Source: Tubiluchus corallicola
Taxonomy: Eukaryota; Priapulida; Priapulimorpha; Priapulimorphida; Tubiluchidae
Length of the DNA stretch: 64,000 bases
Reading direction: 5' to 3'
Assembly: GCA_030141605.1 (NCBI GenBank)
Contig: JAQGDQ010002391.1
Location: forward strand, 55,685 to 119,684
Shown: positions 19,024 to 40,565 of the stretch, piece by piece
How the letters are laid out: every line of letters begins with the position of its first letter
Numbering within the stretch: position 1 is the stretch's first letter
The notes under the pieces: model-generated
Told to the model about the DNA's origin: nothing
Databases searched by the model: none
Seen by the model: the letters and a program-made list of their open reading frames with translations, nothing else
Program-made: the position numbers and the translations under genes

Positions 19024-21820
19024 ATGTGCATAAGGCTACTAAAAGTTCTTGCATTTCTCTCCATATGTTTTTTCTTCTTAGGTAAGGTTTCATTGGCTCA
19101 ATATTATATTGTAGGACAAGATGCAGCTGCTATTAAGTGGCAACAAATCAATTCTGAACATTTTCAAGTCATTTACCCAAAAGAATATGAAGACAAAGCA
19201 CAATATGTGGCTAACTTATTGGAATGGGCTTACCAACTGGATATAAATACTTACAATCATAGCCCCAAGAAGATTTCAATTATCCTTCACACACAAACTA
19301 CCGAAGCAAATGGCTTTGTGGTTTGGGCTCCGAAAAGAATGGAACTTTACACCGTACCTCCGCAAAATATTGATGGACAAGAATGGCTAAGCCAATTAGC
19401 ACTGCACGAAATGCGGCACCTTGTTCAAATAGATTATTTGAACAAGGGAATAGTGAAGGCTCTTAGTATATTGTTTGGTGAACAAGGAGTGGGTTTGATG
19501 TTAGGATATATATATCTCTAATTGGTACCTCGAAGGCGATGCTGTATGGGCAGAGACAGTATTTAGTGCTTCGGGAAGAGGGCGTTTGCCATCGTTCGAA
19601 ATGGGACTTCGCAGCCAGTTTTTGCAACGAGATATCTTCACTTATGATAAAGCTAAAATGGGATCTTTCAAAGATTTCGTTCCTAATCATTATGAATTTG
19701 GGTATCATTTTGTAGCAATGGGCAGAAAGAAGTATGGTAATAGCTTGTGGAATTACTCACCTGATTTCAATTCTTTGGGACGACTTATTTCCCCACAAGA
19801 TCACAACTTGTATAATACAACAGGGTTAGGCTTTGGAAAAGTGAAATTGTATAATGAGTTAATGAAAGAGCTAGATTCTATGTGGCGAGCACAGGATGCA
19901 AAAGTGCAAGCTAACGTGGCAAACACATTGAATTCCTTGCAACGAAAGGGATATGCAAATTATACTTACCCTAAGTTGATGGAAAGTGGCAATGTAATTG
20001 CAAGGAAATATAGTTTTGAAAACGTTGAGCAATTTGTCTTGATAGATGGAGATAAGGAAGAGAAAAAAATAAGAGAGTTGGGGCATATTAATAAAGAACC
20101 TTTTTCATATCGCAAAGGCTTGATTGCTTGGGCAGAACCTTTCCATAACGTAAGGTGGGAGCACAAAAAGTCTTCACGTATTAGGGTGCTGGATGTTAAG
20201 AGCGGAAAAACAAATCGCTTTAGATACAAAGAACGACTGTTTGCTCCATCTTTATCCAACGATTTACAAAGGATTGCCACAGTGGAAGTGGGAAGAGACG
20301 AAAGCTTTTTTCTGACTGTGTTGGATGCTAAGACGGGTAAAGTATTATATAACTTGCCCAATGATAGTAACTTTTTCTTGATTACACCTCAATGGTCATT
20401 TGACGATAAACATATCTACGCCATAGGCTTAGATAATAAAGGAAAAAGACTGTTGAAGATAGATGCAGAAAATGGTGTAATAAAGGCTTTGACACCACCT
20501 ACTTTTACTCAAATTGAGCATATTTTCCCAACACAAAATTATTTGTTCTTTACAGGTGCATATTCAGGAATTAATAATATTTATGCTTATAACTTTGAAA
20601 AGAGTGAAACCTTTAAGGTAACAAGTTCAAAGTTTGGTGCTGATAATGCTTTTGTGTCTTCTGATGAACAAACAATAGTTTATAATGACTATTCTTATGA
20701 AGGAAATAATGTAAAAAAGATGAATCTAAACTCTGATGAATGGTTGCCACTGAGTAAGGTGAAAAACGAAAGCGTGAAATTATATGAAAGTAGTCTTTCT
20801 GACGAACCTGATTTTAGAGCTGTTCCTGTGGACACTATTCTATATGAAACAAAAAAATACTCAAAACTATGGAATGTGTTCAATCTACACTCTTGGATGC
20901 CTTTTTCGCTTGACATAGATGTTGATAATGTTCAGATATCAGAACCTAATATAGGAATAAAACTAATTTCTCAAAATAAACTAAGCACTGTTGTTACTAC
21001 CCTGGATTTCATATATTTAAATGCTTATGATGCTTATAAGTTTAAGGCAGAAGTATCATACAGGGGCTGGTTTCCTGTGTTTGACTTTGGGATAACAACA
21101 TATTCAAAAAATAATTCAAGAGATGATGCAGAGTTACCAACATTATTTGATGCAAGTGTTATGTTACCTATTCGTCAAAGATTCGGGAGTTATTATTTTC
21201 AATTAGAACCTAAGTTAAGTTTTGACTTGGAAAAACGTAGCGGGGAGGATCTAGGAGTAATAGAATCATCACTTTATTTTGCTTTGTTTAGACGGCGTAG
21301 TTATAGAGATTTACTTCCAAGATTAGGAATAGTTAGCAATGTAGAATATTTAAGAAATATAGACTGGAAATTTGATATTCTTAGTCTTGAAAATGTTTTA
21401 TACTTACCAAGCTTATTTCCTAATCATTCTTTTAGGCTCTATAATGGGATACAATTTAAAGAGAACAATAGCAGAGCTAACAAAATTGATATTGCACGAG
21501 GTGTATTAGCTTTTCATAACACTTATCTAAATACTGTAAAGTTGGATTATAGGTTTCCTATTGCATATCCTGATTTTAGTATATGGCTTATTTCATATTT
21601 TAAGAGGTTGAAAGGAGGTGTGTTTTTCGATTATACATATGGAGAGTTTAATTTTTCAGGTATAAACTCCACATCTACAGAAAAATCTGCGGGCATTGAG
21701 TTGAACTTGGATGTGCACGTTTTTAGAATAGGAAGCCCAATTAATATTGGTATAAGGTATGGGTATGATATAAATAGGCAAAGTTATTTTACAAATTTCT
21801 TATTCGGTGTAAGTTTCTAA
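19024..21820 (+). pseudogene. Zincin/TolB-like outer-membrane protein, split by a frameshift
   Basis: The first segment (19024-19521, 165 residues) has a signal peptide and the zincin motif HEMRH in LALHEMRHLVQIDYLNKG. The second open segment, in the +1 frame, resumes with NWYLEGDAVWAETVFSASGRG and runs to 21820. It covers a TolB-like beta-propeller (about 300-500) and a C-terminal beta-barrel ending in aromatic residues (..FLFGVSF). The frame changes within 19506-19519, at an (AT)5 run followed by CTCT. Together they make one protein of about 930 residues, a family widespread in Bacteroidota and of unknown function. The shift could be a mutation, a sequencing error or phase variation. Confidence 0.82.
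19506..19515 (+). repeat. (AT)5 run at the frameshift point
   Basis: Ten bases of alternating A and T lie inside the coding region, directly before the premature TAA at 19519-19521. The downstream frame is one base on from the upstream one. Dinucleotide tracts are prone to slippage. Confidence 0.8.
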
Positions 21821-24071: not shown

Positions 24072-25280
24072 ATGAAATCATCCTTAAAAATTAGAAATGC
24101 TTTTATAACAGTCTTTTTATTCTTTTTTTCTCCCTTTTCTTCCTTGCCCTTTGTACTTATAGAAATTTTTCATCAAAAAAAATATGCCATTTTTTTAATA
24201 TCTTTTTTTATGGCAACATTAGCTTATATTTGGATACCCCCAGTAGACTGGGATATAGTAAGGCATTACATAAATTATAATCACTTTTTAAAATGGAATT
24301 TTTCAGAGTTTATTGATTTCTTAAAAGATAAAAAAGATTACCTCTTATATATAGTTAGTTTCTCTTTGGGAAAAATAGGAGTATCAAGGCAATTTATTCC
24401 TTTTTTCTCTGTTCTTGTAGGTTGTTCTATTTTCTTATCAATATTTCACAATATATATAAAGGTGCTAATAGAAATATATATTTTATGTTTTTTATATTG
24501 TGTTTTTTAAGCCTTCCAATAAGAAAACTTGCTATGGGAGTGAGAAATTCTTTAGCAATCATTATGTTTGCTTATGGTGTATTTTTGCTTTTTTACCAGA
24601 AAAATAAAATGGGGAGAATATATATACTACTTGCTGCACTTACTCATGTTATGATTTGGATCGTTGTTCCATTTTTATTTTTGATAAAAAAAAATAAAAC
24701 ATATTATCGTTTTTATAAATACATATTTTTGTTCTCTTTCATTTTGGTGATATTTCCTAATGTAAAGTCTTCCATTTTTATAACCATAGGAAACGCCATG
24801 GGACTTGAAAATTATGTTAACCATTATGTAGGCTTATGGACAAAAGATGTTCTTGCACAATTTAGTTTCTCAAGAAAAGTCTATTATTATATAAGTTTAT
24901 CAAGTAGTTATTTTTCGTTATTTTATTTAATTACCACAAACAACTTGAATTCACATAGAATAAGGCAAATAACTTATCTCATCGCTGCTTTTTCTAATTT
25001 ATTCTTTTATGAATATATTTTATATGCTAGATACATAGATATTGTTACTACCTTATGTATTATTGATTTGATAATTTATTATCGCGTAACTATGAAAAAA
25101 TACTTGCTATCATATTCTATCATTTTTATTTTAATTTTTTCTATAACTAAGGTAGCTAATATTTATGCAGGACGCAGCACTTTTAATGAAAGTTTTATAA
25201 GAGTAATCTCACAAAATTGTATTTCTGTTTTTTTTATTAAAATAGATGATTCTAAACTTATAAGTAAATCTAAAAAATAA
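24072..25280 (+). CDS. wzy: EpsG-like polysaccharide polymerase (Wzy)
   Basis: 402 residues with about ten to twelve hydrophobic helices and few conserved polar residues. The early WIPPVDWDIVRHY segment and the layout agree with EpsG/Wzy-type polymerases, which link repeat units on the periplasmic side of the inner membrane. It starts 4 bp after the Stealth remnant. The assignment rests on topology and its place between the flippase and the glycosyltransferases. Confidence 0.72.
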   Translation: MKSSLKIRNAFITVFLFFFSPFSSLPFVLIEIFHQKKYAIFLISFFMATLAYIWIPPVDWDIVRHYINYNHFLKWNFSEFIDFLKDKKDYLLYIVSFSLGKIGVSRQFIPFFSVLVGCSIFLSIFHNIYKGANRNIYFMFFILCFLSLPIRKLAMGVRNSLAIIMFAYGVFLLFYQKNKMGRIYILLAALTHVMIWIVVPFLFLIKKNKTYYRFYKYIFLFSFILVIFPNVKSSIFITIGNAMGLENYVNHYVGLWTKDVLAQFSFSRKVYYYISLSSSYFSLFYLITTNNLNSHRIRQITYLIAAFSNLFFYEYILYARYIDIVTTLCIIDLIIYYRVTMKKYLLSYSIIFILIFSITKVANIYAGRSTFNESFIRVISQNCISVFFIKIDDSKLISKSKK

Positions 25281-28682: not shown

Positions 28683-28850
28683 GGAATAAAAGAAAAAAAT
28701 ATCAGTGCAAACGATATTATCAAAAAAGCGGCTCAATACATACAAGGCGGTGGTGGCGGGCAGCCTTTTTATGCTACTGCAGGAGGTAAAAACCCTAATG
28801 GACTACAAAAAGCCTTAGAAAAAGCTATAAAAATAGGAGTAAAAAACTAA
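28683..28850 (+). pseudogene. alaS: 3' fragment of an alanyl-tRNA synthetase gene
   Basis: After a stop at 28680-28682 the frame reads ANDIIKKAAQYIQGGGGGQP, then FYATAGGKNPNGLQKALEKA and ..IKIGVKN with its own stop. This is the C-terminal DHHA1/C-Ala end of AlaRS, including the Gly-rich G-G-G-G-Q-P-F-A-T-A-G-G-K motif. Only about 55 of roughly 870 residues are present and no start codon is available. It must be a relic of a duplication or rearrangement; a complete alaS should exist elsewhere. It sits just before recR. Confidence 0.88.
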
Positions 28851-28859
28851 ACATAACAT

Positions 28860-29480
28860 ATGAACGAGACCAATATACCATCTGCCCTGCTTGAAAATGC
28901 TATCAACGAATTTGCCAAACTACCCAGCATAGGCAAAAAAACGGCTTTACGTCTTATACTTCATTTATTAAAACAAGATGACAATCAAGTAGAAGACTTC
29001 GGCAATAGTATAATTAAACTAAAAAAAGAGGTGTGCTATTGTAAAGTTTGCCATAATATTTCTGACACAGAAATTTGTAACATCTGCTCTAATAATTCGC
29101 GAAACAAGAATATCATCTGTGTTGTAGAAAACATTAAAGACGTAATGTCTATAGAAAATACACAGCAATACAACGGGCTGTATCACGTGTTGGGGGGAAT
29201 TATATCGCCAATGGATGGTATAGGACCCAAAGACATAAATATAGTTTCTCTCGTAGAAAAAGTATCACAGGGAAAGATAGACGAAATTATCCTTGCTCTT
29301 AGTACAACAATGGAAGGAGATACTACCAACTTTTACTTATACAAAAAACTAAATAAGTTTGATGTAAGCATATCTACAATAGCCAGAGGCATATCTATAG
29401 GCAATGAACTCGAATATGCAGATGAAATTACACTTGGACGTTCTATAACAAATAGAACGCCATTTGAACTCTCTATCTAA
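28860..29480 (+). CDS. recR: Recombination mediator protein RecR
   Basis: 206 residues. A helix-hairpin-helix ([17 protein letters not shown]), a four-Cys zinc finger (CKVC..CNIC at about 58-76), a TOPRIM domain opening [15 protein letters not shown], and the C-terminal Walker-B-like tail [15 protein letters not shown]. It acts with RecF/RecO in loading RecA at gaps. It starts nine bases after the alaS fragment. Confidence 0.96.
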
Positions 29481-29645
29481 CAAACTATTTTTGGCAATGT
29501 ATTAGAAATTAGCAGTAAAACAAATCAAGATAGTTTTCTTATTTTAATTGTGATTTATTTCTCTTTTTTTAGACACACTTAGAAAAGACATTTAGCAAAG
29601 AAATGACAACTTTTCTTTTTTCTTGCTAAATTTAAAAAAAACAGT

Positions 29646-29653
29646 TACTTTTG
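29646..29653 (+). promoter_or_regulatory. -7 box upstream of lipoprotein paralogue 1
   Basis: TACTTTTG followed by C, in a leader whose downstream part is shared with paralogues 3 and 4 (..TTTTAGGATTATAAAT..). The expression signal is thus kept although the gene is broken. Confidence 0.5.
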
Positions 29654-29694
29654 CATAAAAATATTGTTTTTTTAGGATTATAAATTAAATAGGA

Positions 29695-31464
29695 TTATTG
29701 TTAAAGGAAGTTTTTCTATTTAAATTAGGAAGAATATTTTTATCTTTTTTATTTTTGTTTCTTTTAGTTTTCACCTCCTGAAAAAAGAAAGATGAGCATG
29801 TTTCACATACAGGCAAAGATTTTCAGAGCTATTCATTTGATATAGAAAATGAACAAGTGGAAATAGGAGAAAACACTATTTCAGTAGAATTACCCAGTGG
29901 CACTGATGTATTAAGCTTGACAACCATCTTTGAAGTATCCGAAGGAGCAAAAGCAAATATAGATGGTGAACCTCAAATAAGTGGCGAAACGAAAAATGAT
30001 TTTAGTGGAGATGTACTCTATACAGTTGTAGCAGAAAATGGAAGTGATTATAAGGACTATACAGTAGCAGTAACTGTAGGACAACCTACTTTCCAAGCCC
30101 TAAGCTATTACAATAAAGAGAACCGTATAGGAGCAGGTGATTTTGAAAAAGAAGATTTGTTTGAAATAAGCAATTTGCCAGATGGAACATATACTTATTC
30201 GCTGAAAATAGGAGAGAAAGATGCTGGAACAGCACAAACAGTAACAGTAACAGACAATATAGGCAAAATAAAAAGTCTTTTACCTACAGATGATTGGAAA
30301 ACTATAAATGATGAAGGGGTTAGCATTACTTTAACTATGGTCAATGATGGTACAGATAATGATGTGTTTATTTATAGCATCACTAAGGAGCAATACGCTA
30401 TTAAAAGCTGGCAAGACTTACAGGGTATGCAATATGATTTAACTGGTACTTATACTTTGGAGAATGACATATCCCTACCTACTCCTTCCACAGGAGGTGG
30501 AGCTTTCCCGAACGAGCTTCCTGCAGAAGGTTTTGATCCTGTGGGTGATGGGGATAATATATTTACAGGCTCATTTGAAGGACAGGATAATGTAATAAGA
30601 AATTTCTTTATAGATCGCAGCGAGACAGTGAATGTAGGCTTGTTTGGACATGTAAATGATAGTGATAGTGAAATAGAAGATGTAAACATAGAAGTAAACG
30701 AAATAACAGGAAAACATAGTGTTGGTGGTCTTGCAGGGAGTATTATAGCAGGAACAATAAATAATTGTCATATTACAGGAGGTAGTGTGGAAGCAAAAAA
30801 AGCTAGCACTGGCTTTTCTTATCTTGGCGGACTGGTAGGAAATCTTAGTGGTGGTGGTAATATTTCTAACTGCTATGCCACAGGAGATGTAGAAGGAGGA
30901 TCTACCATTGGTGGACTAGTAGGGTATATTGAGAACGGAAATATATCTGACAGCCATGCCACAGGAGGTGTAAAAGGAAATTCTGTAGGAGGATCTGCTA
31001 CCGTTGGTGGACTAGCAGGGTATATTAAGAACGGAAATATATTTGACAGCTATGCCACAGGAAGGGTAACAGGAACAACTCATGTTGGTGGACTAGTAGG
31101 GCATATTTATGAAAACGTAAATATATCTAACAGCTATCCTGCCACAGGAAGTGTAGAAGGTGTAGAAGGAACATCTGGTGTTGGTGTTGGTGGGCTAATA
31201 GGTAAGATATATCAAAGTCCGACAGTTGAAAATAGTTATTGGGATGAAGCATCCTCTGAGTTAAATACCTCTGCTGGTGGCACAGGTGTTTCCTCAGGGA
31301 ATAATTTGGTGAAGGAAGGAGAGGAGGATTATATAGATAAAGAAGACGATGGCACTGGCACTACAAAGGTTTTTGTAGGTTGGCAATTTGGCACAGATGA
31401 AAATAAGCCTTGGAAGTGGCTGAGTAATGGTAATTGGCCTGTACTGCATTGGGCGGATAATTAA
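29695..31464 (+). pseudogene. DUF5018/GLUG surface lipoprotein, paralogue 1 (start lost, lipobox Cys is a stop)
   Basis: Compared with paralogue 3, a 12-bp stretch holding the ATG is gone (29693/29694 junction). The Cys codon of the lipobox is TGA at 29779-29781 (..LVFTS stop KKKDEH). Downstream the frame is open to 31464, about 560 codons: one DUF5018-like domain, a middle ALSYYNKENRIGAGDF domain shared with copies 2 and 3, then about seven GLUG repeats (VGGL.G.I..NISNSYATG) forming a predicted beta-helix, and a Trp-rich tail. An internal GTG at 29857 could start translation but would give a protein without an export signal. Confidence 0.88.
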
Positions 31465-31508
31465 AGATACAAGGAGCAAAAGAAATAAGAGTATTGCAAA
31501 GAATATCT

Positions 31509-31542
31509 AAAACCGTACTGCAAAAAGGTAGTACGGTTTTTT
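31509..31542 (+). terminator. Rho-independent terminator after paralogue 1
   Basis: An 11-bp stem (AAAACCGTACT / AGTACGGTTTT) with a 10-nt loop, ending in a run of T. It differs from the terminator cassette that follows the other three paralogues. Confidence 0.85.
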
Positions 31543-31550
31543 ACACAAAG

Positions 31551-31595
31551 TTGCTTATTTGATTTTTATTTATATTTGATTTTTATTTATATTTG
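31551..31595 (+). promoter_or_regulatory. Duplicated promoter region of paralogue 2
   Basis: TTTGATTTTTATTTATA is present twice in tandem (31558-31574, 31575-31591). Each copy plus its right neighbour makes a -7 box TATATTTG, at 31571-31578 and 31588-31595. The first has TTG at 31551-31553 with a 17-nt spacer. Confidence 0.55.
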
Positions 31596-31648
31596 CAAAA
31601 ATTGATATATTTAATGAACCTAAGTTAAATTATAAACATAACTAATTT

Positions 31649-34160
31649 ATGAAAACAGTTTTGAATAAGACAACAGTTTTGAAGCCTATCACAGTACTAT
31701 CATCTTTTATAGTACTATTATCCTTTATTTTTGTGTTGGGATGTAAAAAGGACGATGAGGAAGCTCCTCCTCTCTCTAGTGGAAAAGACATTACGAAGTT
31801 TGATTTTGAGGCAGACAATAATGATGAATTGACAGAAGATGTGGAAGGAGATATTTCAGAAGAAGACGGAACGATTACATTAATAGTACCCTTTGACACA
31901 GATCTAAGTAAAAATTTGAAAGCCAGCTTTGAGGTATCAGGAGGAGCAAAAGTAATGATAAATGATGAACCTCAAACAAGTGGCGAAACGGAAAATCTCT
32001 TTGAGAGAGATCAATCCGTAACCTACACGGTAAAAGCTCAAGATGGTAGCGAAAAGGTATATGATGTAACTGTAACTCTAGCACCACCAATTATAAAAAA
32101 GTTTGATTTTGAGGCAGAACATAACGGAGTATTGGACGTAGATGTGAAAGGAGTTATTTTAGAAGGTGAAGATAAAGATACGATTACATTAATAGTCCCC
32201 CAAGGCACAGATCTAAAGTAAAAACTTGACAGCCAGCTTTGAGGTATCGGGAGAAGCAACAGTAACGGTAGAGGGGGTGCTCCAAGAAAGTGGCGAAACG
32301 GCAAATAAATTTAGTAGTAATGTAACCTATAATGTTGCAGAAAAAGATAACCCAAACAACAGTAGGGATTATATTGTAATTGTAACTGAATCAAACCCAA
32401 GTCAAGAATGTGACATTACGGAATTTAAATTTGAGGCAGACAAAAATCAAGCATTGACAGACGATGTGGTCGCAGATGACTTTACAGGATCAATTGAGAT
32501 TTCGTTAACAGTCCCCTATGGCACAGGTCTAAAATTGACCCCTACCATAGTAGTATCAGATAAAGCCAAAGTAGATCCCGCCAGTGAAGAGGAGAAAGAT
32601 TTCACAAACCCAGTAACCTACACGGTAACAGCAGAAGATGAAACTACTACGAAGAGTTATACTGTAACAGTAAATGTAGCAGGAGAACCTACTTTCGAAG
32701 CCCTAAGCTATTACAATGGAGAGAACCGTATAGGGGCAGGAGACTTTGAGAATAAAGATAGTTTGTTTGTGTTGAGCAATTTGGCAAATGGAATATATAC
32801 TTATTCGCTGAAAATAGGAGAGAAAGATGCTGGAACAGCACAAACAGTAACAGTAACAGACAATATAGGCAAAATAGAAAATACTTTATCTGTAGGTGAT
32901 TGGAAATCTATAAATGATGAAGAGGTTAGCATTACTTTAACTATAGGTACAGATAATGATGTGTTTGCTTATACCATTACTAAGGAGCAATACGCTATTA
33001 AAAGCTGGCAAGACTTACAGGGTATGAAGTATGATTTAGAAGGAGATTATAGCTTAAAGAACAATGTAGAACTTCCAACACCAACGGATGGAGGAACATT
33101 CCCCGAATCACTTCCTGCAGCAGGTTTTGAGCCTATAGGTGATAGTGATAATCCATTTGAGGGGTCTTTTAATGGTAATAATAATAAAATAAGTAATTTC
33201 TTTATAGATCACAGCGGTGCAGATAATGTAGGCTTGTTTGGTTATGTAGAAGATGGTCAAATAGAAGATGTAAACATAGAAGTAAACGAAATAACAGGAA
33301 AACATAATGTTGGTGGTCTTGCAGGGTATATTAGTGCAACAGAAGAAAAAACTATAAAAAATTGTCATATTACAGGAGGTAGTGTGAATGCAGGGAACAG
33401 CTCTGGTGTTTCTAATCTTGGCGGGCTAGTAGGCGGTGTGTCTACTCAGGGGCTGGCAACAATTACTATTTCTGATTGCTCTGCTGCTAATGCTGTAGAA
33501 GGAAATGGGCGACATGTTGGTGGACTAGTAGGAATTTTTGGTAGTGGTAATATTTCTAACTGCTATGCCACAGGAAGTGTAACAGGCACAGGAAGTGTAG
33601 TAACAGAAGAATCATATGGCGTTGGTGGACTAGTAGGGTTTATATTTGGAAATATTTCTAACAGCTATGCCACAGGAAGTGTAACAGGAGAACATGACGT
33701 TGGTGGACTAGTAGGGGATCTTCTTGTAGGAAATATATCTAACAGCTATGCCACATCAGGAAGTGTAACAGCAACAAGAACTACAGGAGAATCTAACGTT
33801 GGTGGACTAGTAGGGTATCTAGCCGGCAGCATATCTAACAGCTATGCTGCCACAGGAAGTGTAACAGGAGCATCTAACGTTGGTGTTGGTGGGCTAATAG
33901 GTAAGATAGAACAAAACCCGACAGTTGAAAATAGTTATTGGGATAAAAAATCCTCTGGTTTACTTACCTCTGCTGGTGGCGGTACAGGTGTTTCATCAGG
34001 AGAATATTTGGAGCAGGAAGAAAATAAATATATAGATAAAGAAGATGATGGCAGTGGCACTACAGAGGTTTTTGTAGGTTGGAATTTTGGCACAGATAAT
34101 AGTAATCCTTGGAAGTGGCTGAGTAATGGTAATTGGCCTGTACTGAATTGGCAACAGTAG
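31649..34160 (+). pseudogene. DUF5018/GLUG surface lipoprotein, paralogue 2 (frameshifted)
   Basis: A lipoprotein signal with lipobox VLGC (Cys 31) opens the first open segment, which stops at 32219-32221. The second segment, in the next frame, runs from about 32222 to 34160. The equivalent place in its own first domain (31901-31930) reads GATCTAAGTAAAAA, whereas the second has GATCTAAAGTAAAAA: a single extra A in the run 32215-32217 causes the break. The whole encodes three DUF5018-like domains, the ALSYYNGENRIGAGDF domain, about nine GLUG repeats and a Trp-rich tail (..WKWLSNGNWPVLNW). Its signal peptide differs from that of the other three paralogues. Confidence 0.88.
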
Positions 34161-34161
34161 T

Positions 34162-34263
34162 TATAAACCATTTTCAAATCTTTTTTATATAAAATATTCA
34201 CTAAAATTTTAAAGCAAGTACATTATAAAAAATGTACTTGCTTTGTATTGTACTTGCTTCTGC
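34162..34263 (+). repeat. Terminator cassette, copy A (hairpin 34211-34244)
   Basis: 102 bp shared almost exactly with 36215-36316 and, in part, 39046-39115. It contains a 13-bp perfect stem AAAGCAAGTACAT / ATGTACTTGCTTT around an 8-nt loop, followed by a T-containing tail. It ends paralogue 2. Confidence 0.9.
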
Positions 34264-34280
34264 TAAATTTTAAAAAAACT

Positions 34281-34288
34281 TACCTTTG
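34281..34288 (+). promoter_or_regulatory. -7 box of lipoprotein paralogue 3
   Basis: TACCTTTG, 38 nt before the ATG at 34327 and at the same place as the boxes of paralogues 1 and 4. Confidence 0.5.
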
Positions 34289-34326
34289 ATAAGTATGTTA
34301 CTTTTAGGATTATAAATAAAATAGGT

Positions 34327-36210
34327 ATGAAAAATTTATTATTGTTAAAGGAAGTTTTTCTATTTAAATTAGGAAGAATATTTTTATCTTTTTTATTTTT
34401 GTTTCTTTTAGTTTTCACCTCCTGCAAAAAGAGTGAATCAGAACAACCTGAACCTCCTAAATCAGACGACAAGGAAATTGTAAGATTTGTATTTGAGAAA
34501 GATAATAATGAAATATTAAATGCGGATATAGAAGGAGAGATTATAGATCAAGAAGGTAAAATTAATATAGTACTTCCTTATGGTATAACCACTAACTCTC
34601 TTATGCTGTCTCCTACAATAGAGATATCAGAAAAAGCTACAATAGATCCTCCCAGTGGTGAGAAACAAGATTTTGCGAATGATATAACTTATACAGTAAC
34701 AGCCGAAGATGGAAGTGAAAAGAACTATGAAGTAACAGTAGGTGTAAGACCTACTTTCCAAGCCCTAAGCTATTACAATGGAGAGAACCGTATAGGGGCG
34801 GGTGATTTTGAAAAAGAAGATTTGTTTGAAATAAGCAATTTGCAAGATGGAGAATATACTTATTCGCTGAAAATAGGAGAGAAAGATGATGGAACAGCAC
34901 AAACAGTAACAGTAATAGACAATATAGGCAAAATAGATAATCCTTTACCTGTAGACGATTGGAAAACTATAAATGATGAAGGGGTTAGCATTACTTTAAC
35001 TATAGTCAATGATGGTACAGATAATGATGTGTTTATTTATAGCATTACTAAGGAGCAATACGCTATTAAAAGCTGGCAAGACTTACAGGGTATGAAGTAT
35101 GATTTAGAAGGTACTTATAGCTTAGAGAACGATGTAGAACTTCCAACACCAACGGATGGAGGGAATTTCCCCGAATCACTTCCTGAAAAAGGTTTTGAGC
35201 CTATAGGTGATAGTGACAATCCATTTAAGGGGGATTTTAATGGAGGGGGTAATGTGATAAGTAATTTCTTTATAAATCGCAGCGAAGCAGATAATGTAGG
35301 CTTGTTTGGATATGTAGAAGATGGTGGTGAAATAATAAATGTAAACATAAAAGTAAACAAAATAACAGGAAATACTAATGTTGGTAGTCTTGCAGGGCAT
35401 ATTACAACAAAAACAGAAGAAACAATTATAAAAAATTGTCATATTACAGGAGATTCTGTGGAAGCAAAAGAGAACAATCTTGGCGGGCTCGCAGGCAAGA
35501 TGTCTGCTGATAATGATCAGGGAAAAATTAAAGTTTATAATTGCTCTGCTACTAATCCTGTAAAAGGAAATGGGCGACATGTTGGCGGACTGGTAGGGTA
35601 TCAATCTGGTAATGGTACAAATATTTCTAACAGCTATGCCACAGGAGATGTAACAGGAACAACTCATGTTGGCGGACTAGTAGGGGATAATTCTTTGGGA
35701 AATATATCTAACAGCTATGCCACAGGAAGTGTAGAAGGAGAATATGACGTTGGTGGACTAGTAGGGTATCTAACCGGCAGCATATTTAACAGCTATGCTG
35801 CCACAGGAAGTGTAACAGGAACAACAGGTACAGGAGAATATAACGTTGGTGGACTAGTAGGGTATCTAACCGGCAGCATATTTAACAGCTATGCTGCCAC
35901 AGGAAGTGTAACAGGTGTAGAAGGAACATCTGGTGTTGGTGGGCTAATAGGTAAGATAGATCAAAGTCCGACAGTTGAAAATAGTTATTGGGATAAAAAA
36001 TCCTCTGAGTTAGATACCTCTGCTGGTGGCGACCAAGTAGTAGGTGTTTCCTCAGGAGAAAATTTGGAGATGGAAGGAGGGGGTTATGTAGATAAAGGCG
36101 ATGATGGCAGTGGCAATAATCCCGTTTTCGAAGACTGGGGGTTTGACAAAAATGATTATAATCCTTGGTATTGGCGGAACAATAATTGGCCTATACTGTA
36201 TTGGCAATAG
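34327..36210 (+). CDS. DUF5018/GLUG surface lipoprotein, paralogue 3 (intact)
   Basis: 627 residues. Signal peptide with lipobox FTSC (Cys 33), a Ser/Glu/Pro linker, one DUF5018-like domain (about 48-138, ending YTVTAEDGSEKNYEVTV), the ALSYYNGENRIGAGDF domain (about 143-255), then about eight GLUG repeats of roughly 30-35 residues and a Trp-rich C-terminus. GLUG repeats are thought to form a beta-helix, and many such proteins are on the cell surface. A perfect 73-bp repeat with a 96-bp period (35747-35819, 35843-35915) shows recent gain of one GLUG unit. Function unknown; adhesion or glycan contact is a guess. Confidence 0.85.
   Translation: MKNLLLLKEVFLFKLGRIFLSFLFLFLLVFTSCKKSESEQPEPPKSDDKEIVRFVFEKDNNEILNADIEGEIIDQEGKINIVLPYGITTNSLMLSPTIEISEKATIDPPSGEKQDFANDITYTVTAEDGSEKNYEVTVGVRPTFQALSYYNGENRIGAGDFEKEDLFEISNLQDGEYTYSLKIGEKDDGTAQTVTVIDNIGKIDNPLPVDDWKTINDEGVSITLTIVNDGTDNDVFIYSITKEQYAIKSWQDLQGMKYDLEGTYSLENDVELPTPTDGGNFPESLPEKGFEPIGDSDNPFKGDFNGGGNVISNFFINRSEADNVGLFGYVEDGGEIINVNIKVNKITGNTNVGSLAGHITTKTEETIIKNCHITGDSVEAKENNLGGLAGKMSADNDQGKIKVYNCSATNPVKGNGRHVGGLVGYQSGNGTNISNSYATGDVTGTTHVGGLVGDNSLGNISNSYATGSVEGEYDVGGLVGYLTGSIFNSYAATGSVTGTTGTGEYNVGGLVGYLTGSIFNSYAATGSVTGVEGTSGVGGLIGKIDQSPTVENSYWDKKSSELDTSAGGDQVVGVSSGENLEMEGGGYVDKGDDGSGNNPVFEDWGFDKNDYNPWYWRNNNWPILYWQ
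35747..35915 (+). repeat. Internal 96-bp-period duplication (73 bp identical) in paralogue 3
   Basis: 35747-35819 and 35843-35915 are identical. The period is 32 codons, one GLUG repeat, so the duplication keeps the frame. Confidence 0.85.
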
Positions 36211-36214
36211 TAGC

Positions 36215-36316
36215 TATAAACCATTTTCAAATCTTTTTTATATAAAATATTCACTAAAATTTTAAAGCAAGTACATTTCTTATAATGTACTTGCTTTGTA
36301 TTGTGCTTGCTTCTGC
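36215..36316 (+). repeat. Terminator cassette, copy B (hairpin 36264-36297)
   Basis: Near-identical to copy A, with the same 13-bp arms and loop TTCTTATA. It ends paralogue 3. Confidence 0.9.
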
Positions 36317-36334
36317 AAAATTTATAAAAAAAGT

Positions 36335-36342
36335 TATCTTTG
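36335..36342 (+). promoter_or_regulatory. -7 box of lipoprotein paralogue 4
   Basis: TATCTTTG followed by C, 45 nt before the ATG at 36388, in a leader similar to that of paralogue 1. Confidence 0.55.
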
Positions 36343-36387
36343 CATAAAAATATTGTTTTTTTAGGATATAAATAAAATTAAATTAGT

Positions 36388-39009
36388 ATGAAAAAATTAT
36401 TATTGTTAAAGGAAGTTTTTCTTTTTAAATTAGGAAGAATATTTTTATCTTTTTTATTTTTGTTTCTTTTAGTTTTCACCTCCTGCAAAAAGGAAGAAGA
36501 GCATGTTTCACAATCTACAGATAAAGATTTTCTGAGCTATTCATTAAGGGTACAAGATGAAAATGTGGAAATAGGAAACGACACTATTTCAATAGACTTA
36601 CCCAATGACACTAATGTAACACAATTGAGAGCCATCTTTACACTATCCCAAGGAGCAACAGCAAAGATAGGTGACAGTGTTCAAATAAGTGGCGTAACGC
36701 CAAATGATTTTAGTAGTGATGTAACCTATACTGTTGTAGCCGAAGATGGAAGTGAAAAGAACTATGTAGTAACAGTAAATATTTTACAATCTACAGATAA
36801 AGATTTTCTGAGCTATTCATTTGGGGTACAAGATGAAAATGTGGAAATAGGAAACGACACTATTTCAATAGACTTACCCAATGACACTAATGTAACACAA
36901 TTGAGAGCCATCTTTACACTATCCCAAGGAGCAACAGCAAAGATAGGTGACAGTGTTCAAATAAGTGGCGTAACGCCAAATGATTTTAGTAGTGAGGTAA
37001 CCTATACAGTTGTAGCCGAAGATGAAAGTGAAAAGAACTATGTAGTAATAGTAACAGTAAATGTTTCACAATCTACAGATAAAGATTTTCTGAGCTATTC
37101 ATTTGGGGTACAAGATGAAAATGTGGAAATAGGAAACGACACTATTTCAATAGACTTACCCAATGACACTAATGTAACACAATTGAGAGCCATCTTTACA
37201 CTATCCCAAGGAGCAACAGCAAAGATAGGTGACGATCCTCAAATAAGTGGCGTAACGCCAAATGATTTTAGTAGTGATGTAACCTATACTGTTGTAGCCG
37301 AAGATGGAAGTGAAAAGAACTATGTAGTAACAGTAAATATTTTACAATCTACAGATAAAGATTTTCTGAGCTATTCATTTGGGGTACAAGATGAAAATGT
37401 GGAAATAGGAAACGACACTATTTCAGTAGACTTACCCAATGACACTAATGTAACACAATTGAGAGCCATCTTTACACTATCCCAAGGAGCAACAGCAAAG
37501 ATAGGTGACAGTGTTCAAATAAGTGGCGTAACGCCAAATGATTTTAGTAGTGAGGTAACCTATACAGTTGTAGCCGAAGATGAAAGTGAAAAGAACTATG
37601 TAGTAATAGTAACAGTAAATGTTTCACAATCTACAGATAAAGATTTTCTGAGCTATTCATTTGGGGTACAAGATGAAAATGTGGAAATAGGAAACGACAC
37701 TATTTCAATAGACTTACCCAATGACACTAATGTAACACAATTGAGAGCCATCTTTACACTATCCCAAGGAGCAACAGCAAAGATAGGTGACGATCCTCAA
37801 ATAAGTGGCGTTACGCCAAATGATTTTAGTAGTGATGTAACCTATACTGTTGTAGCCGAAGATGGAAGTGAAAAAAACTATGTAGTAACAGTAAATATTT
37901 TACAATCTACAGATAAAGATTTTCTGAGCTATTCATTTGGGTTCGGAGATGATGAAGATGTGGAAATAGGAAACGACACTATTTTAGTAGACTTACCCAG
38001 TGGTACTGATGTAACACAATTGATAGCCACCTTTACACTATCCCAAGGAGCAACAGCAAAGATAGGTGACGATCCTCAAATAAGTGGCGTTACGCCAAAT
38101 GATTTTAGTAGTGATGTAACCTATACTGTTGTAGCCGAAGATGGAAGTAAAAAAAACTATGTAGTAATAGTTGCTTTACAATCTACAGACAAATATTTTC
38201 TGAATTATTCATTAGGGGTACAAGGTGAAAATGTGGAAATAGGAAACGACACTATTTCAGTAGACTTACCCAGTGGCACTGATGTAACACAATTGAGAGC
38301 CATCTTTACACTATCCCAAGGAGCAACAGCAAAGATAGGTGACAGTGTTCAAATAAGTGGCGTAACGCCAAATGATTTTAGTAGTGATGTAACCTATACT
38401 GTTGTAGCCGAAGATGGAAGTGAAAAGAACTATGTAGTAACAGTAAATATTTTACAATCTACAGATAAAGATTTTCTGAGCTATTCATTAAGGGTAGAAG
38501 GTGAAAATGTGCGAATAGGAAACGACACTATTTCAATAGACTTACCCAATGACACTAATGTAACACAATTGAGAGCCACCTTTATACTATCTCAAGGAGC
38601 AACAGCAAAGATAGGTGACGATACTCAAATAAGTGGCGTAACGCCAAATGATTTTAGTAGTGATGTAACCTATACTGTTGTAGCCGAAGATGGAAGTGAA
38701 AAGAACTATGTAGTAACAGTAAATATTTTACAATCTACAGATAAAGATTTTCTGAGCTATTCATTTGGGGTACAAGATGAAAATGTGGAAATAGGAAACG
38801 ACACTATTTTAGTAGACTTACCCAGTGGTACTGATGTAACACAATTGATAGCCACCTTTACACTATCCCAAGGAGCAACAGCAAAGATAGGTGACGATCC
38901 TCAACAAAGTGGCACAACGACAAATGATTTTAGTAATGATGTAACCTATACAGTTGTAGCCGAAGATGAAAGTGAAAAGAACTATGTAGTAACAGTAACA
39001 GTACAGTAG
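36388..39009 (+). CDS. Lipoprotein paralogue 4: nine tandem DUF5018-like repeats, GLUG part lost
   Basis: 873 residues. The signal peptide is almost the same as in paralogue 3, with Cys 33 in FTSC. Nine repeats of about 92 residues follow, beginning at 36511, 36787, 37069, 37345, 37627, 37903, 38179, 38455 and 38731. Most open with QSTDKDFLSYS and end with VTYTVVAEDGSEKNYVVTV. Repeats 2 and 4 are 282 bp, the others about 276 bp. Repeats 2+3 and 4+5 form two near-identical 558-bp doublets. Each unit has the DUF5018 pattern of an Ig-like beta fold. Homology to paralogue 1 continues past the stop (39010-39045), showing that a GLUG half once followed. Probably now a rod-like stalk. Confidence 0.85.
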   Translation: MKKLLLLKEVFLFKLGRIFLSFLFLFLLVFTSCKKEEEHVSQSTDKDFLSYSLRVQDENVEIGNDTISIDLPNDTNVTQLRAIFTLSQGATAKIGDSVQISGVTPNDFSSDVTYTVVAEDGSEKNYVVTVNILQSTDKDFLSYSFGVQDENVEIGNDTISIDLPNDTNVTQLRAIFTLSQGATAKIGDSVQISGVTPNDFSSEVTYTVVAEDESEKNYVVIVTVNVSQSTDKDFLSYSFGVQDENVEIGNDTISIDLPNDTNVTQLRAIFTLSQGATAKIGDDPQISGVTPNDFSSDVTYTVVAEDGSEKNYVVTVNILQSTDKDFLSYSFGVQDENVEIGNDTISVDLPNDTNVTQLRAIFTLSQGATAKIGDSVQISGVTPNDFSSEVTYTVVAEDESEKNYVVIVTVNVSQSTDKDFLSYSFGVQDENVEIGNDTISIDLPNDTNVTQLRAIFTLSQGATAKIGDDPQISGVTPNDFSSDVTYTVVAEDGSEKNYVVTVNILQSTDKDFLSYSFGFGDDEDVEIGNDTILVDLPSGTDVTQLIATFTLSQGATAKIGDDPQISGVTPNDFSSDVTYTVVAEDGSKKNYVVIVALQSTDKYFLNYSLGVQGENVEIGNDTISVDLPSGTDVTQLRAIFTLSQGATAKIGDSVQISGVTPNDFSSDVTYTVVAEDGSEKNYVVTVNILQSTDKDFLSYSLRVEGENVRIGNDTISIDLPNDTNVTQLRATFILSQGATAKIGDDTQISGVTPNDFSSDVTYTVVAEDGSEKNYVVTVNILQSTDKDFLSYSFGVQDENVEIGNDTILVDLPSGTDVTQLIATFTLSQGATAKIGDDPQQSGTTTNDFSNDVTYTVVAEDESEKNYVVTVTVQ
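36511..39009 (+). repeat. Array of nine 276/282-bp coding repeats
   Basis: DNA-level identity between units is very high. The array keeps frame and repeat variants alternate (GDSVQ and GDDPQ types), which indicates amplification by unequal crossing-over of both single and paired units. Confidence 0.95.
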
Positions 39010-39045
39010 GACAACCTACTTTCCAAGTCGTAAGCTATTACAAAG
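39010..39045 (+). pseudogene. Scar of the lost GLUG half of paralogue 4
   Basis: The 36 bases after the stop match the start of the ALSYY domain in paralogue 1 (30081 onward: GACAACCTACTTTCCAAG.., then ..TAAGCTATTACAA). The match ends abruptly and joins the 3' terminator cassette. The coding frame upstream is shifted relative to paralogue 1 by five extra bases near 39003-39007. Confidence 0.8.
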
Positions 39046-39115
39046 ATATTCACTAAAATTTTAAAGCAAGTACATTTCTTATAATGTACTTGCTTTGTAT
39101 TGTGCTTGCTTCTGC
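39046..39115 (+). repeat. Terminator cassette, copy C (hairpin 39063-39096)
   Basis: The same 13-bp arms and loop as copy B. The first 32 bases of the cassette are missing because the deletion joined it to the ALSYY-domain remnant. Confidence 0.9.
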
Positions 39116-39320
39116 ATTCTGTTCTAAAAAAATGAGTTAATTTATTTTTAGGAACCTCTTTCATTGAAAGAAGCTATAATCAGAAAGGAAAAAACTATCA
39201 AATGAAAACTTAATATCAGAAACTTTTAGAAAAAACAACTCATATTTATTCTGTCCAATCTTTTTTTAGACAATGTCAGCAGGTACTTTGATACAATAAA
39301 ACACACAACCCAAACTCACT
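39116..39320. other. Intergenic region after the lipoprotein array
   Basis: A+T-rich and convergent between paralogue 4 and waaA. No coding region, hairpin or repeat beyond the cassette was recognised. Confidence 0.5.
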
Positions 39321-40541
39321 TTACAATACCTCTGAAAGTATCTGCTCAGAAGCACCTATGTTTTTTTCTACATATGTCCTGCATATATCTGAAACCTCCT
39401 GCAATCTGATACCATCATCCAACAAACTATCCAATATATTTTTCAACTCTTCATAATCCTTTATAGAAAAAGCTCCCCCCAAACCTACAAGTTCTACAGC
39501 CTCGTTATATTTTTTATATTCAGTACCAAACACTGTGGGTAATCCATATACTGCTGCTTCCACAATATTGTGAATACCATCCCTAAAACCACCTCCAATA
39601 TAAGCCACATTGCCATACCTGTAAACCTCAGATAATATCCCTATCACATCCACAATTAACACTTGTGCTTCTTTCAATTCTACCTTATCACATTTTGAAT
39701 ACAAACAATACTTTACCTTCAACGTTTTGCAAATAGCCTCTATACAAGTCTTATTTACTATGTGAGGAGCAATAATTGCTTTTACTTTATTATTATTGAT
39801 GTACTGCAAAAGCAACTTCTCATCTTCTTTCCACGTACTACCACACACCAAACATTTTTCTTTTCCTTTAAACATTTCTACTATTGGCAAGCCCTCTCTC
39901 TGTTGTGCAATTTCCCACACACGGTCAAACCGTGTATCACCCGCTACGGAGACACAGTTAATCCCTATTGATTGTAATAAATCTGCTGATGCCTCAGTCT
40001 GAACAAAAAGACGAGTAAAAGCATTCAAAGCCTTTCTATACCAACTCCCATACCATTGAAAGAAAACCTGCTCCTTGCGAAAAATAGCTGAAAAAATATA
40101 GCAGGGTATGTTGTTTTGTTTTATCACAGAGAGATAGTTCAGCCAAAACTCATATTTAATAAAAAAGACTTTTTCCGGTCGCACTATCTTTATAAATCGT
40201 TTTGCATTCCCCCAAGTATCATTTGGCAGGTAAGATACGTAGTTCACCCCTTCGTAATCTTTAACCTCCTCATAGCCCGAAGGTGAAAAGAAAGTCAATA
40301 ATATTTTATATTCAGGACATCTTGCTTTTAGTTTTTCCATTACAGGACGCCCCTGTTCAAACTCACCCAATGAAGAAGCGTGAAACCACACTATTCTATC
40401 ATTTTTCTTTATTTTACTAGCCAGCCAGCACAGTCTCCCCCTCCTACCCTCTACCCAAAGTTTTGCCTTCTTATTGAAGATAGCTGCCAACCTCATCCCC
40501 CAACCCATTATATACATAGATATATTATACAAAAACCACAT
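39321..40541 (-). CDS. waaA: 3-deoxy-D-manno-octulosonate (Kdo) transferase
   Basis: About 406 residues from ATG 40541 (MWFLYNISMYIMGWG). An ATG at 40559 is also in frame, but it lies only 7 bp from the -7 box at 40573-40566, at the expected transcription start, so the inner start is preferred. An N-terminal membrane anchor is followed by the KdtA pattern: HASSLGEFEQGRP, LLTFFSPSGYE, FFIKYEFWLNYL, GDTRFDRV, and a late AAVYGLPTVFG. It adds Kdo from CMP-Kdo to lipid A precursor at the inner membrane. Divergent from tatA. Confidence 0.93.
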   Translation of the reverse strand: MWFLYNISMYIMGWGMRLAAIFNKKAKLWVEGRRGRLCWLASKIKKNDRIVWFHASSLGEFEQGRPVMEKLKARCPEYKILLTFFSPSGYEEVKDYEGVNYVSYLPNDTWGNAKRFIKIVRPEKVFFIKYEFWLNYLSVIKQNNIPCYIFSAIFRKEQVFFQWYGSWYRKALNAFTRLFVQTEASADLLQSIGINCVSVAGDTRFDRVWEIAQQREGLPIVEMFKGKEKCLVCGSTWKEDEKLLLQYINNNKVKAIIAPHIVNKTCIEAICKTLKVKYCLYSKCDKVELKEAQVLIVDVIGILSEVYRYGNVAYIGGGFRDGIHNIVEAAVYGLPTVFGTEYKKYNEAVELVGLGGAFSIKDYEELKNILDSLLDDGIRLQEVSDICRTYVEKNIGASEQILSEVL

Positions 40542-40565
40542 CACACAACACTTAAACAAACATTA

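Follow-up and report, generated by a model that had tools for sequence, protein, structure and literature searches.

Gene cassettes that are copied from one surface-protein gene into another have been described mainly in pathogens that face adaptive immunity. Among the described cases, passages of a study on Mycoplasma synoviae (PMC2825196) report expressed variants of vlhA that share their first 670 nucleotides (nt) and then diverge, a clustered reservoir of related copies and replacement by gene conversion, and passages of a further paper (PMC4534519) report segmental copying from paralogous cassettes for vlsE of Borrelia and pilE/pilS of Neisseria. Pilin variation in Neisseria requires recA, recO and recR, according to passages of a preprint (PMC12871193). 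Here we describe an array of four tandem lipoprotein paralogues, G1 to G4, at 29.7-39.1 kb of a 64,000-nt stretch of contig C2294 from the Tubiluchus corallicola assembly (C2294:55685-119684, hereafter the window, to which all plain coordinates refer), together with a fifth copy, G0, at a distance of 84 kb on this contig. Mosaicism in the window and, directly, a related array on other contigs support exchange between copies. We consider it probable that segments have been exchanged among the genes of the array and with G0, gene bodies being copied between constant ends by homologous recombination, which likely varies the cell surface.

Results

All four genes lie on the forward strand between recR (28860-29480) and kdtA (39321-40559, reverse strand), and sequence comparison bore out the initial annotation in treating them as tandem paralogues. 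Their modules are a leader, DUF5018-like units, GLUG repeats and, between the latter two, a module without a Pfam match for which we coined the label SYYN from its first residues. G3 (34327-36210) is intact and encodes 627 amino acids (aa), comprising leader, lipobox cysteine, one DUF5018-like unit, SYYN and GLUG repeats that are predicted to form a solenoid. G4 (36388-39009), with a leader and nine DUF5018-like repeats, is open over 873 aa as well, so that 2 of the 4 reading frames are intact and not a single one as the annotation had it. The two remaining genes are broken by small mutations, as had been recognized. In G1 (29695-31464) a small deletion removed the start codon and a stop codon stands at the lipobox, leaving a 535-aa frame (29857-31464) with one DUF5018-like unit, SYYN and GLUG repeats, and in G2 (31649-34160), which combines a leader of its own type with DUF5018-like units, SYYN and GLUG, a single frameshift near 32216, which could be a sequencing error, splits the gene into two frames (31649-32221 and 32226-34160). 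The nine tandem units of G4 (36503-39000), each of 273-282 nt, are 91-100% alike and are followed by a 41-nt remnant of the start of SYYN (39003-39043, 93% identical to G1), directly 3' of which stands the terminator cassette (39043-39131). Because this piece of the module next to DUF5018 has been kept right before the cassette, we conclude that the GLUG half of G4 was deleted; the exchange of this half for an expanded DUF5018 stalk, as first proposed, is ruled out by the deletion scar.

Of the 52 window open reading frames (ORFs) of at least 150 aa, 30 were scanned with Pfam, and the statements below on families found or missed in the window refer to these. GLUG (PF07581, cut-off 20.5 bits) was matched by G1 (75 bits), G2 (82.2 bits) and G3 (89.8 bits), and also by G0 (121.5 bits), with no match in G4. 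DUF5018 (PF16410, cut-off 38.2 bits) was matched by G4 at 152.5 bits and stayed below the cut-off in G3 (32.7 bits) and in the second and first frames of G2 (35.5 and 19.9 bits); none was listed for the G1 frame, and the only DUF5018-related match of G0 reached 21.8 bits against a cut-off of 28.1. The shared domains of the annotation are thus confirmed above threshold for GLUG in three genes and for DUF5018 in G4, and not for DUF5018 in G2 and G3.

The nearly constant ends of the family are the upstream segment and leader in G0, G1, G3 and G4, and the terminator cassette in G0, G2, G3 and G4. Leader DNA is 97-99% identical among G0, G1, G3 and G4 (98-99% among G1, G3 and G4) and only 74-78% between G2 and these, which upholds the proposed common leader for three genes of the array and rules it out for all four. 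The 80-nt segment upstream of the leader is 84-87% identical among G1, G3 and G4, that of G1 (29615-29694) being 96% identical to G0, and its conservation leads us to presume that it is the promoter region. Promoter boxes in the sense of the annotation were not recovered: the consensus, which we take to be TTTG-N17-23-TAnnTTTG, has 8 matches in the window where 6.2 would be expected, none of them within 150 nt of the four gene starts, and consensus promoters at these starts are accordingly rejected. A single chance-level match at the recR end (29463-29493) precedes the G1 start by about 200 nt. The hairpin cassette after G2 (34191-34279), G3 (36244-36332) and G4 agrees with the annotated terminator common to three genes, with 3 matches against 0 expected in 100 shuffles and shuffle z values of -5.3 to -5.6, and it is 83-99% identical among G0, G2, G3 and G4. 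G1 ends in a terminator-like hairpin (31500-31545) unlike that of the other genes. Copies at 94-97% of a 33-36-nt piece of the post-gene cassette (36231-36266, just 5' of the hairpin) were also seen at C1472:423547, C1472:427162 and C533:30194, on contigs that are perhaps other parts of the same chromosome.

Between these ends the modules differ in their degree of conservation. The first DUF5018 unit is 72-81% identical between copies, except for G0 and G1 with 96%, and G3 joins a leader of the G1/G4 type (98-99%) to a unit that is only 72-79% like the first unit of any other copy. SYYN (34744-35268 in G3), with 86-94% DNA identity between copies over its first 300 nt, forms a conserved hinge amid more variable stretches. 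The distribution of variants along the genes was non-random in three tests. From SYYN to the end, the 278 two-state sites of G1, G2 and G3 form 135 runs where 182.8 would be expected; adding the leader gives 454 sites, which form 213 runs where the expectation is 298.1, and the quartet G0-G3 has 90 informative sites, split 54/19/17, in 28 runs against 51.4 expected; 0 of 20,000 shuffles gave so low a number in any of the tests. G0 to G3 are mosaics of one another, and together with the 98% block of 1.36 kb and the body copying in a related array described below, this sustains the earlier view that sequence is remodelled between copies.

The ratio of nonsynonymous to synonymous substitution rates (dN/dS) of the six pairs among G0-G3 was 0.85-1.43, and all six bootstrap intervals of the corresponding ratio of proportions (pN/pS) include 1, which would be compatible with possible selection for diversity in the window family; the control gene pair showed zero differences and was uninformative. 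A diversity-generating retroelement was considered because dN was about equal to dS, and no reverse transcriptase was found among the scanned ORFs, no dedicated test having been made. Site-specific inversion of the shufflon kind was rejected, with no inverted repeats of at least 40 nt in 29-40 kb and no recombinase among the scanned ORFs.

The fifth copy, which the initial annotation had missed together with a second recR, emerged when the recR flank of the window was searched against the entire assembly. C2294 holds all 3 matches: besides the window, these are locus A at C2294:319-1312 (99% identity, lying 84 kb upstream) and a 54-nt piece before G4. Locus A runs in the order alaS end, recR, G0, terminator cassette, and G0 is an intact gene of 808 aa with an intact leader, two DUF5018-like units (below the cut-off), SYYN and GLUG. 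Locus A (C2294:319-1690) and the window (28687-30046, locus B) are 98% identical over 1360 aligned nt, from the alaS tail through recR and the leader into the first DUF5018 unit. At the left edge of this tract the window holds an alaS 3' end fragment of 54 codons (28687-28859), 96% identical over 54 aa to a locus A ORF (L104 12-482) that represents the C-terminal end of alaS (TIGR00344 positions 715-847 of 847, plus DHHA1). Since alaS is only a fragment at locus B, with the left break inside it, we conclude that locus B carries the derived copy of the tract. Neither recR copy is damaged (copy B encodes 206 aa), and the two differ at 6 of 621 nt, 4 of the changes being nonsynonymous; they score 234.2 (copy A) and 234.1 bits (copy B) with TIGR00615, the cut-off being 162.6. 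Beyond the tract the modules of G0 and G1 are 80-91% alike, and their GLUG part holds an island with one difference in 180 nt (30880-31059) among neighbouring parts that are mostly 80-95% alike. On the far side, yfcE and miaA follow at locus A and kdtA at locus B, and since these genes differ, the two loci are not two versions of one locus. A 74-nt leader remnant after the G0 terminator (L104 3867-3940) points to a further copy that locus A probably had in the past.

The family is widespread in the assembly (343.5 Mb, 2344 contigs; C2294 itself has 140,272 bp). The G3 protein has at least 135 matches across many contigs, and among 20 stretches fetched for comparison, arrays with the same order of leader, DUF5018-like units, SYYN and GLUG, some of them split, were found on C1720, C164, C1700, C1721, C188 and C1299. 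The stretches other than C2294 have a G+C content of 31-42% and presumably belong to other Bacteroidota, and in a tree of 31 SYYN modules (24 of them different) the four C2294 modules grouped together in 91% of 200 bootstrap replicates. The array on C1720 carries two Mutator-family (Transposase_mut) genes within and beside it (L107 273-1469 and 8486-9682), whose proteins are 98.7% identical, and on C1700 a 21-nt repeat with a start codon in it is present in four copies at the beginning of the first array gene and in two copies at the second (L112 2362-2446 and 5367-5409).

Direct evidence for the copying of a gene body comes from C1700 and C1721, which look like two versions of one region. Outside the array the two differ at 6 positions in about 7.2 kb, a count that omits an 84-column alignment end effect and the first 500 nt beside the array (81 more differences), and at none in 3989 nt sampled 40 kb further on. 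In the third array gene they agree fully over 286 nt before the gene and over its first 565 coding nt (188 aa), whereupon the bodies fall to 41-78% identity per 150-column window over about 3.4 kb before the near-identical flank resumes. The two proteins are about 31-71% identical per 60-column block, both frames are open (1335 and 1341 aa), and the DNA of neither version contains any N. The 3' halves of gene 2 differ too, with one frame in C1700 and two in C1721. Within the third gene, C1700:264,730-266,414 differs from a long array gene on C1658 by 1 substitution and 15 gap positions in 1685 aligned nt, and the SYYN of the third gene is identical to one in that long gene; the sequence beside this 1.7-kb tract differs by 14-37%, and a further 176 nt at 267,012 have 3 differences. 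Moreover, 1500 nt of the tract recur at 99% both at C1700 362,103-363,617, which is 97 kb from the recipient gene, and at C1721 105,113-106,627, and C1721's own third gene is 68% identical to the tract over about 600 nt. Because the donor is present in both versions while the recipient differs, the copying was duplicative. A second pair, C188 and C727, is free of differences over 3600 nt (recF and the 5' part of an array gene) whereas the three gene windows that follow (C188:28,998-29,418) have 34 differences and 198 gap positions. The recF gene (335.6 bits, cut-off 172; L117 1035-2198) adjoins the array on C188 and is also found on C727.

Mis-joined strain versions or repeats, yielding false duplicates and false body swaps, might produce patterns of this sort. 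The homology of locus A begins only 318 nt from the contig end, which makes it the place most exposed to a mis-join, the far ends of C1700 and C1721 are near-identical as in alternative assembly paths, and the frameshift of G2 amounts to one base in a short A run, a change that is a typical long-read error. An artefact of assembly is nevertheless very unlikely in view of the different far-side genes of loci A and B and the truncation of alaS at locus B, the open and N-free frames of both swapped versions, and the two lesions of G1, neither of which is a homopolymer error. The surroundings of the C1700/C1721 array raise the alternative that such arrays belong to Mu-like prophages, as cargo or for attachment to the host, and that the variation is that of phages. 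A YadA-head/S74 tail-spike-like gene stands on one side of the array and Mu-like transposition genes (phrog_310, phrog_296, DUF3164) on the other (on C1700, L112 44-1873 and L113 2827-8060). We regard a phage origin as extremely improbable, given that no phage family came up among the 30 of 52 window ORFs scanned, that G3 has no PHROG match and that lipoprotein leaders are not expected on virion proteins.

The N-termini give a divided picture of export to the surface. The export motif of surface lipoproteins of Bacteroidota is C-x-K-(D/E)2, according to passages of PMC5080379, and its strict form is present in G4 and in G2, the frame of which is broken further on; G3 and G0 carry a looser form only. 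Residues resembling the export signal after the lipobox cysteine suggest that the array lipoproteins may be exposed on the surface. A structure model of G3 (mean predicted local distance difference test, pLDDT, 78.8; 15 sequences) shows a leader helix and beta-rich domains, with a confident stretch at residues 250-490 (pLDDT mostly >90). It resembles 3n6z of Bacteroides ovatus (template modelling score, TM, 0.54 by target and 0.31 by query) and IgA1 proteases; the Pfam scan gave no peptidase domain in G3, and the likeness to GLUG proteins of the IgA1 protease type is one of fold only.

Outside the assembly, a tblastn search with the array genes against 80 recR-bearing loci gave no match at 1e-5, the flanks being uneven and many shorter than 10 kb, so that arrays farther away would be missed, and the G3 protein had 3 weak matches in 40 of these 80 relatives. 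SYYN was found in 0 of 393 Bacteroidales-order genomes at 1e-8, in a search without a positive control, so that this zero is uninformative. In a large protein set none of 239 candidates carried SYYN at E 0.001, a search that misses distant members such as P0077, a protein of 712 aa that has the module order seen here (leader, DUF5018 repeats, a SYYN of 34% identity, GLUG). A described system of this gene make-up was not found in the open-access literature searched.

The window is bacterial, with a G+C content of 32.5%, and by its sequence is best read as a stretch of a Bacteroidota chromosome. The RecR search gave 275 loci, the best 80 of which were kept and all bear Bacteroidota group names; with the nearest at 73% identity, the bacterium appears to have no close relative among the best 80 of the 275, its own or very near records possibly having been excluded. 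No match to the COX1 family was obtained in the whole assembly, in a search whose control was positive in 8 of 14 genomes, and this would fit an anaerobic sample, the host included; the data suggest an assembly of a eukaryote with its bacteria. Elsewhere in the window, two long ORFs of 744 and 402 aa (19586-21820 and 24072-25280) near a polysaccharide-synthesis gene have no Pfam or PHROG match.

Discussion

Our preferred reading of the mosaic genes, the conserved ends and the body copying in a related array is that the constant ends anchor recombination between paralogues, as in other gene-conversion families, and that new bodies thereby come to stand behind a kept leader. The exchange itself might be carried out by general homologous recombination through RecA and RecFOR, and the resulting variation might be selected in encounters with phage, host cell or neighbours. 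At C2294 recR adjoins both loci and was duplicated with the cassette, and recF adjoins the C188 array; this adjacency is notable, although it was noticed after the fact and carries no test. Taken in its widest form, the proposal would be a new surface-variation system of Bacteroidota living with an anaerobic eukaryote, in which dispersed lipoprotein arrays with constant leader and terminator have swappable DUF5018-SYYN-GLUG bodies, copied in whole or in part between loci up to 97 kb apart, with a RecFOR gene adjacent and, at C2294, co-duplicated. We advance this wider form tentatively and regard it as somewhat unlikely to hold in full. If true, it raises the question of what selects surface switching where antibody may be absent, be it phage, grazing or host-cell attachment; the C1700/C1721 pair supplies donor, recipient and tract boundaries for its study, and the recR duplicated beside the array offers a lead on how the loci recombine.

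Several observations weigh against exchange that varies the surface in the window bacterium. The directly visible case concerns an array on other contigs and probably another species, and the search with the recR flank found no second version of the window's own array in the assembly; for this reason exchange in the window array has to be regarded as historical and not as observed. C1700 and C1721 argue, for the related array, against the static array free of exchange that had been named as the opposite outcome, and for the array of the window no version for comparison was found. C188 and C727 also diverge beyond the array (24 differences in 600 nt), and since divergence resumes on that side too, this pair is the weaker evidence. 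Among 30 N-termini, which were hand-chosen, include some near-copies of one another and 2 without a proper lipobox that were still counted, the strict export motif was in the minority (6/30; loose form 22/30). Furthermore, a dN/dS of about 1 in the window family also fits relaxed constraint, and in eight pairs from other arrays dN/dS was 0.29-0.98 in seven and 2.48 in one (17 nonsynonymous and 2 synonymous differences), with 5 of the 8 pN/pS intervals below 1, indicating purifying selection and not diversification.

These values also bear on the alternative that the arrays reflect the birth and death of a repeat-rich family through duplication, slippage and decay, with recombination as a by-product and variation without benefit. 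Long direct repeats can be expected to recombine in any bacterium, and an origin of this kind would account for the decay of 2 of the 4 window copies, for the tandem repeats and the deletion in G4, and for a dN/dS that is close to 1 in the family of the window and lower in 5 of the 8 pairs elsewhere. It explains less well why the frames with swapped bodies have stayed open over 1335 and 1341 aa and kept constant ends, why arrays of the same make-up occur on several contigs, and why G0 and G3 have kept frames of 808 and 627 aa at a DNA identity of 82% from SYYN to the end; on balance we find it rather unlikely.

A different question is whether the array is a programmed system for antigenic variation of the vlhA, vlsE or pilE kind, in which a single expressed locus is fed by silent broken copies and G1 and G2 form the reservoir. 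Broken copies do stand beside intact ones, the donor is kept after copying, and the constant 5' end with a diverging body recalls the expressed vlhA variants with their shared first 670 nt, as given in passages of PMC2825196. However, the leader is intact and the upstream segment conserved in each of G0, G3 and G4, so that the anatomy of the genes speaks against a single expression site, at least as far as sequence can speak for transcription, and the earlier suggestion that silent copies feed one expressed copy is not supported. The donor in the C1700 case, moreover, lies inside a very long open frame (1764 aa) and is no silent fragment, and no recombinase came up among the 30 of 52 window ORFs scanned. 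A programmed system of this kind is accordingly quite unlikely, and we prefer the copying of bodies between constant ends.

Set beside the known systems, the array shares features with several. Proteins with DUF5018 and GLUG (PF16410, PF07581), compared as single proteins outside their gene neighbourhoods, have the same domains, and P0077 also has the same module order. Porphyromonas gingivalis, like the window bacterium one of the Bacteroidota, has mosaic surface proteins, shaped by domain rearrangement and allelic exchange, with variants distributed without regard to strain phylogeny, yet Kgp, FimA, RagAB and others were compared there between strains, and the passages of PMC5266723 describe no tandem array that copies from paralogues on the same chromosome. 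With vlsE and pilE the array has in common segmental copying into a surface-protein gene and, with pilin variation, a link to recR, which is needed there and adjoins both loci here (passages of PMC12871193). In contrast to the silent cassettes of those systems (pilS has no promoters), the copies here are mostly complete genes in dispersed arrays, and the tracts measure 1.4-1.7 kb, against up to 423 bp in vlsE and 10-500 bp in pilE, as given in passages of PMC4534519. Donors without a leader that serve a single expression site do not match the anatomy found here, G1 being the only copy without a leader. Duplicative copying from a kept paralogue, on the other hand, is present in C1700/C1721 and is preserved in the window as historical tracts only. 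The closest pattern is that of the vlhA haemagglutinin family of Mycoplasma synoviae, where, in the passages of PMC2825196, surface paralogues likewise combine a constant 5' end with a replaceable body, related copies are clustered and replacement proceeds by gene conversion. The passages describe one promoter and one expressed copy for vlhA, whereas several copies here have intact leaders and upstream segments; the domains, DUF5018-like, SYYN and GLUG, and the phylum also differ. By this analogy, the array may work like such systems without being a member of them.

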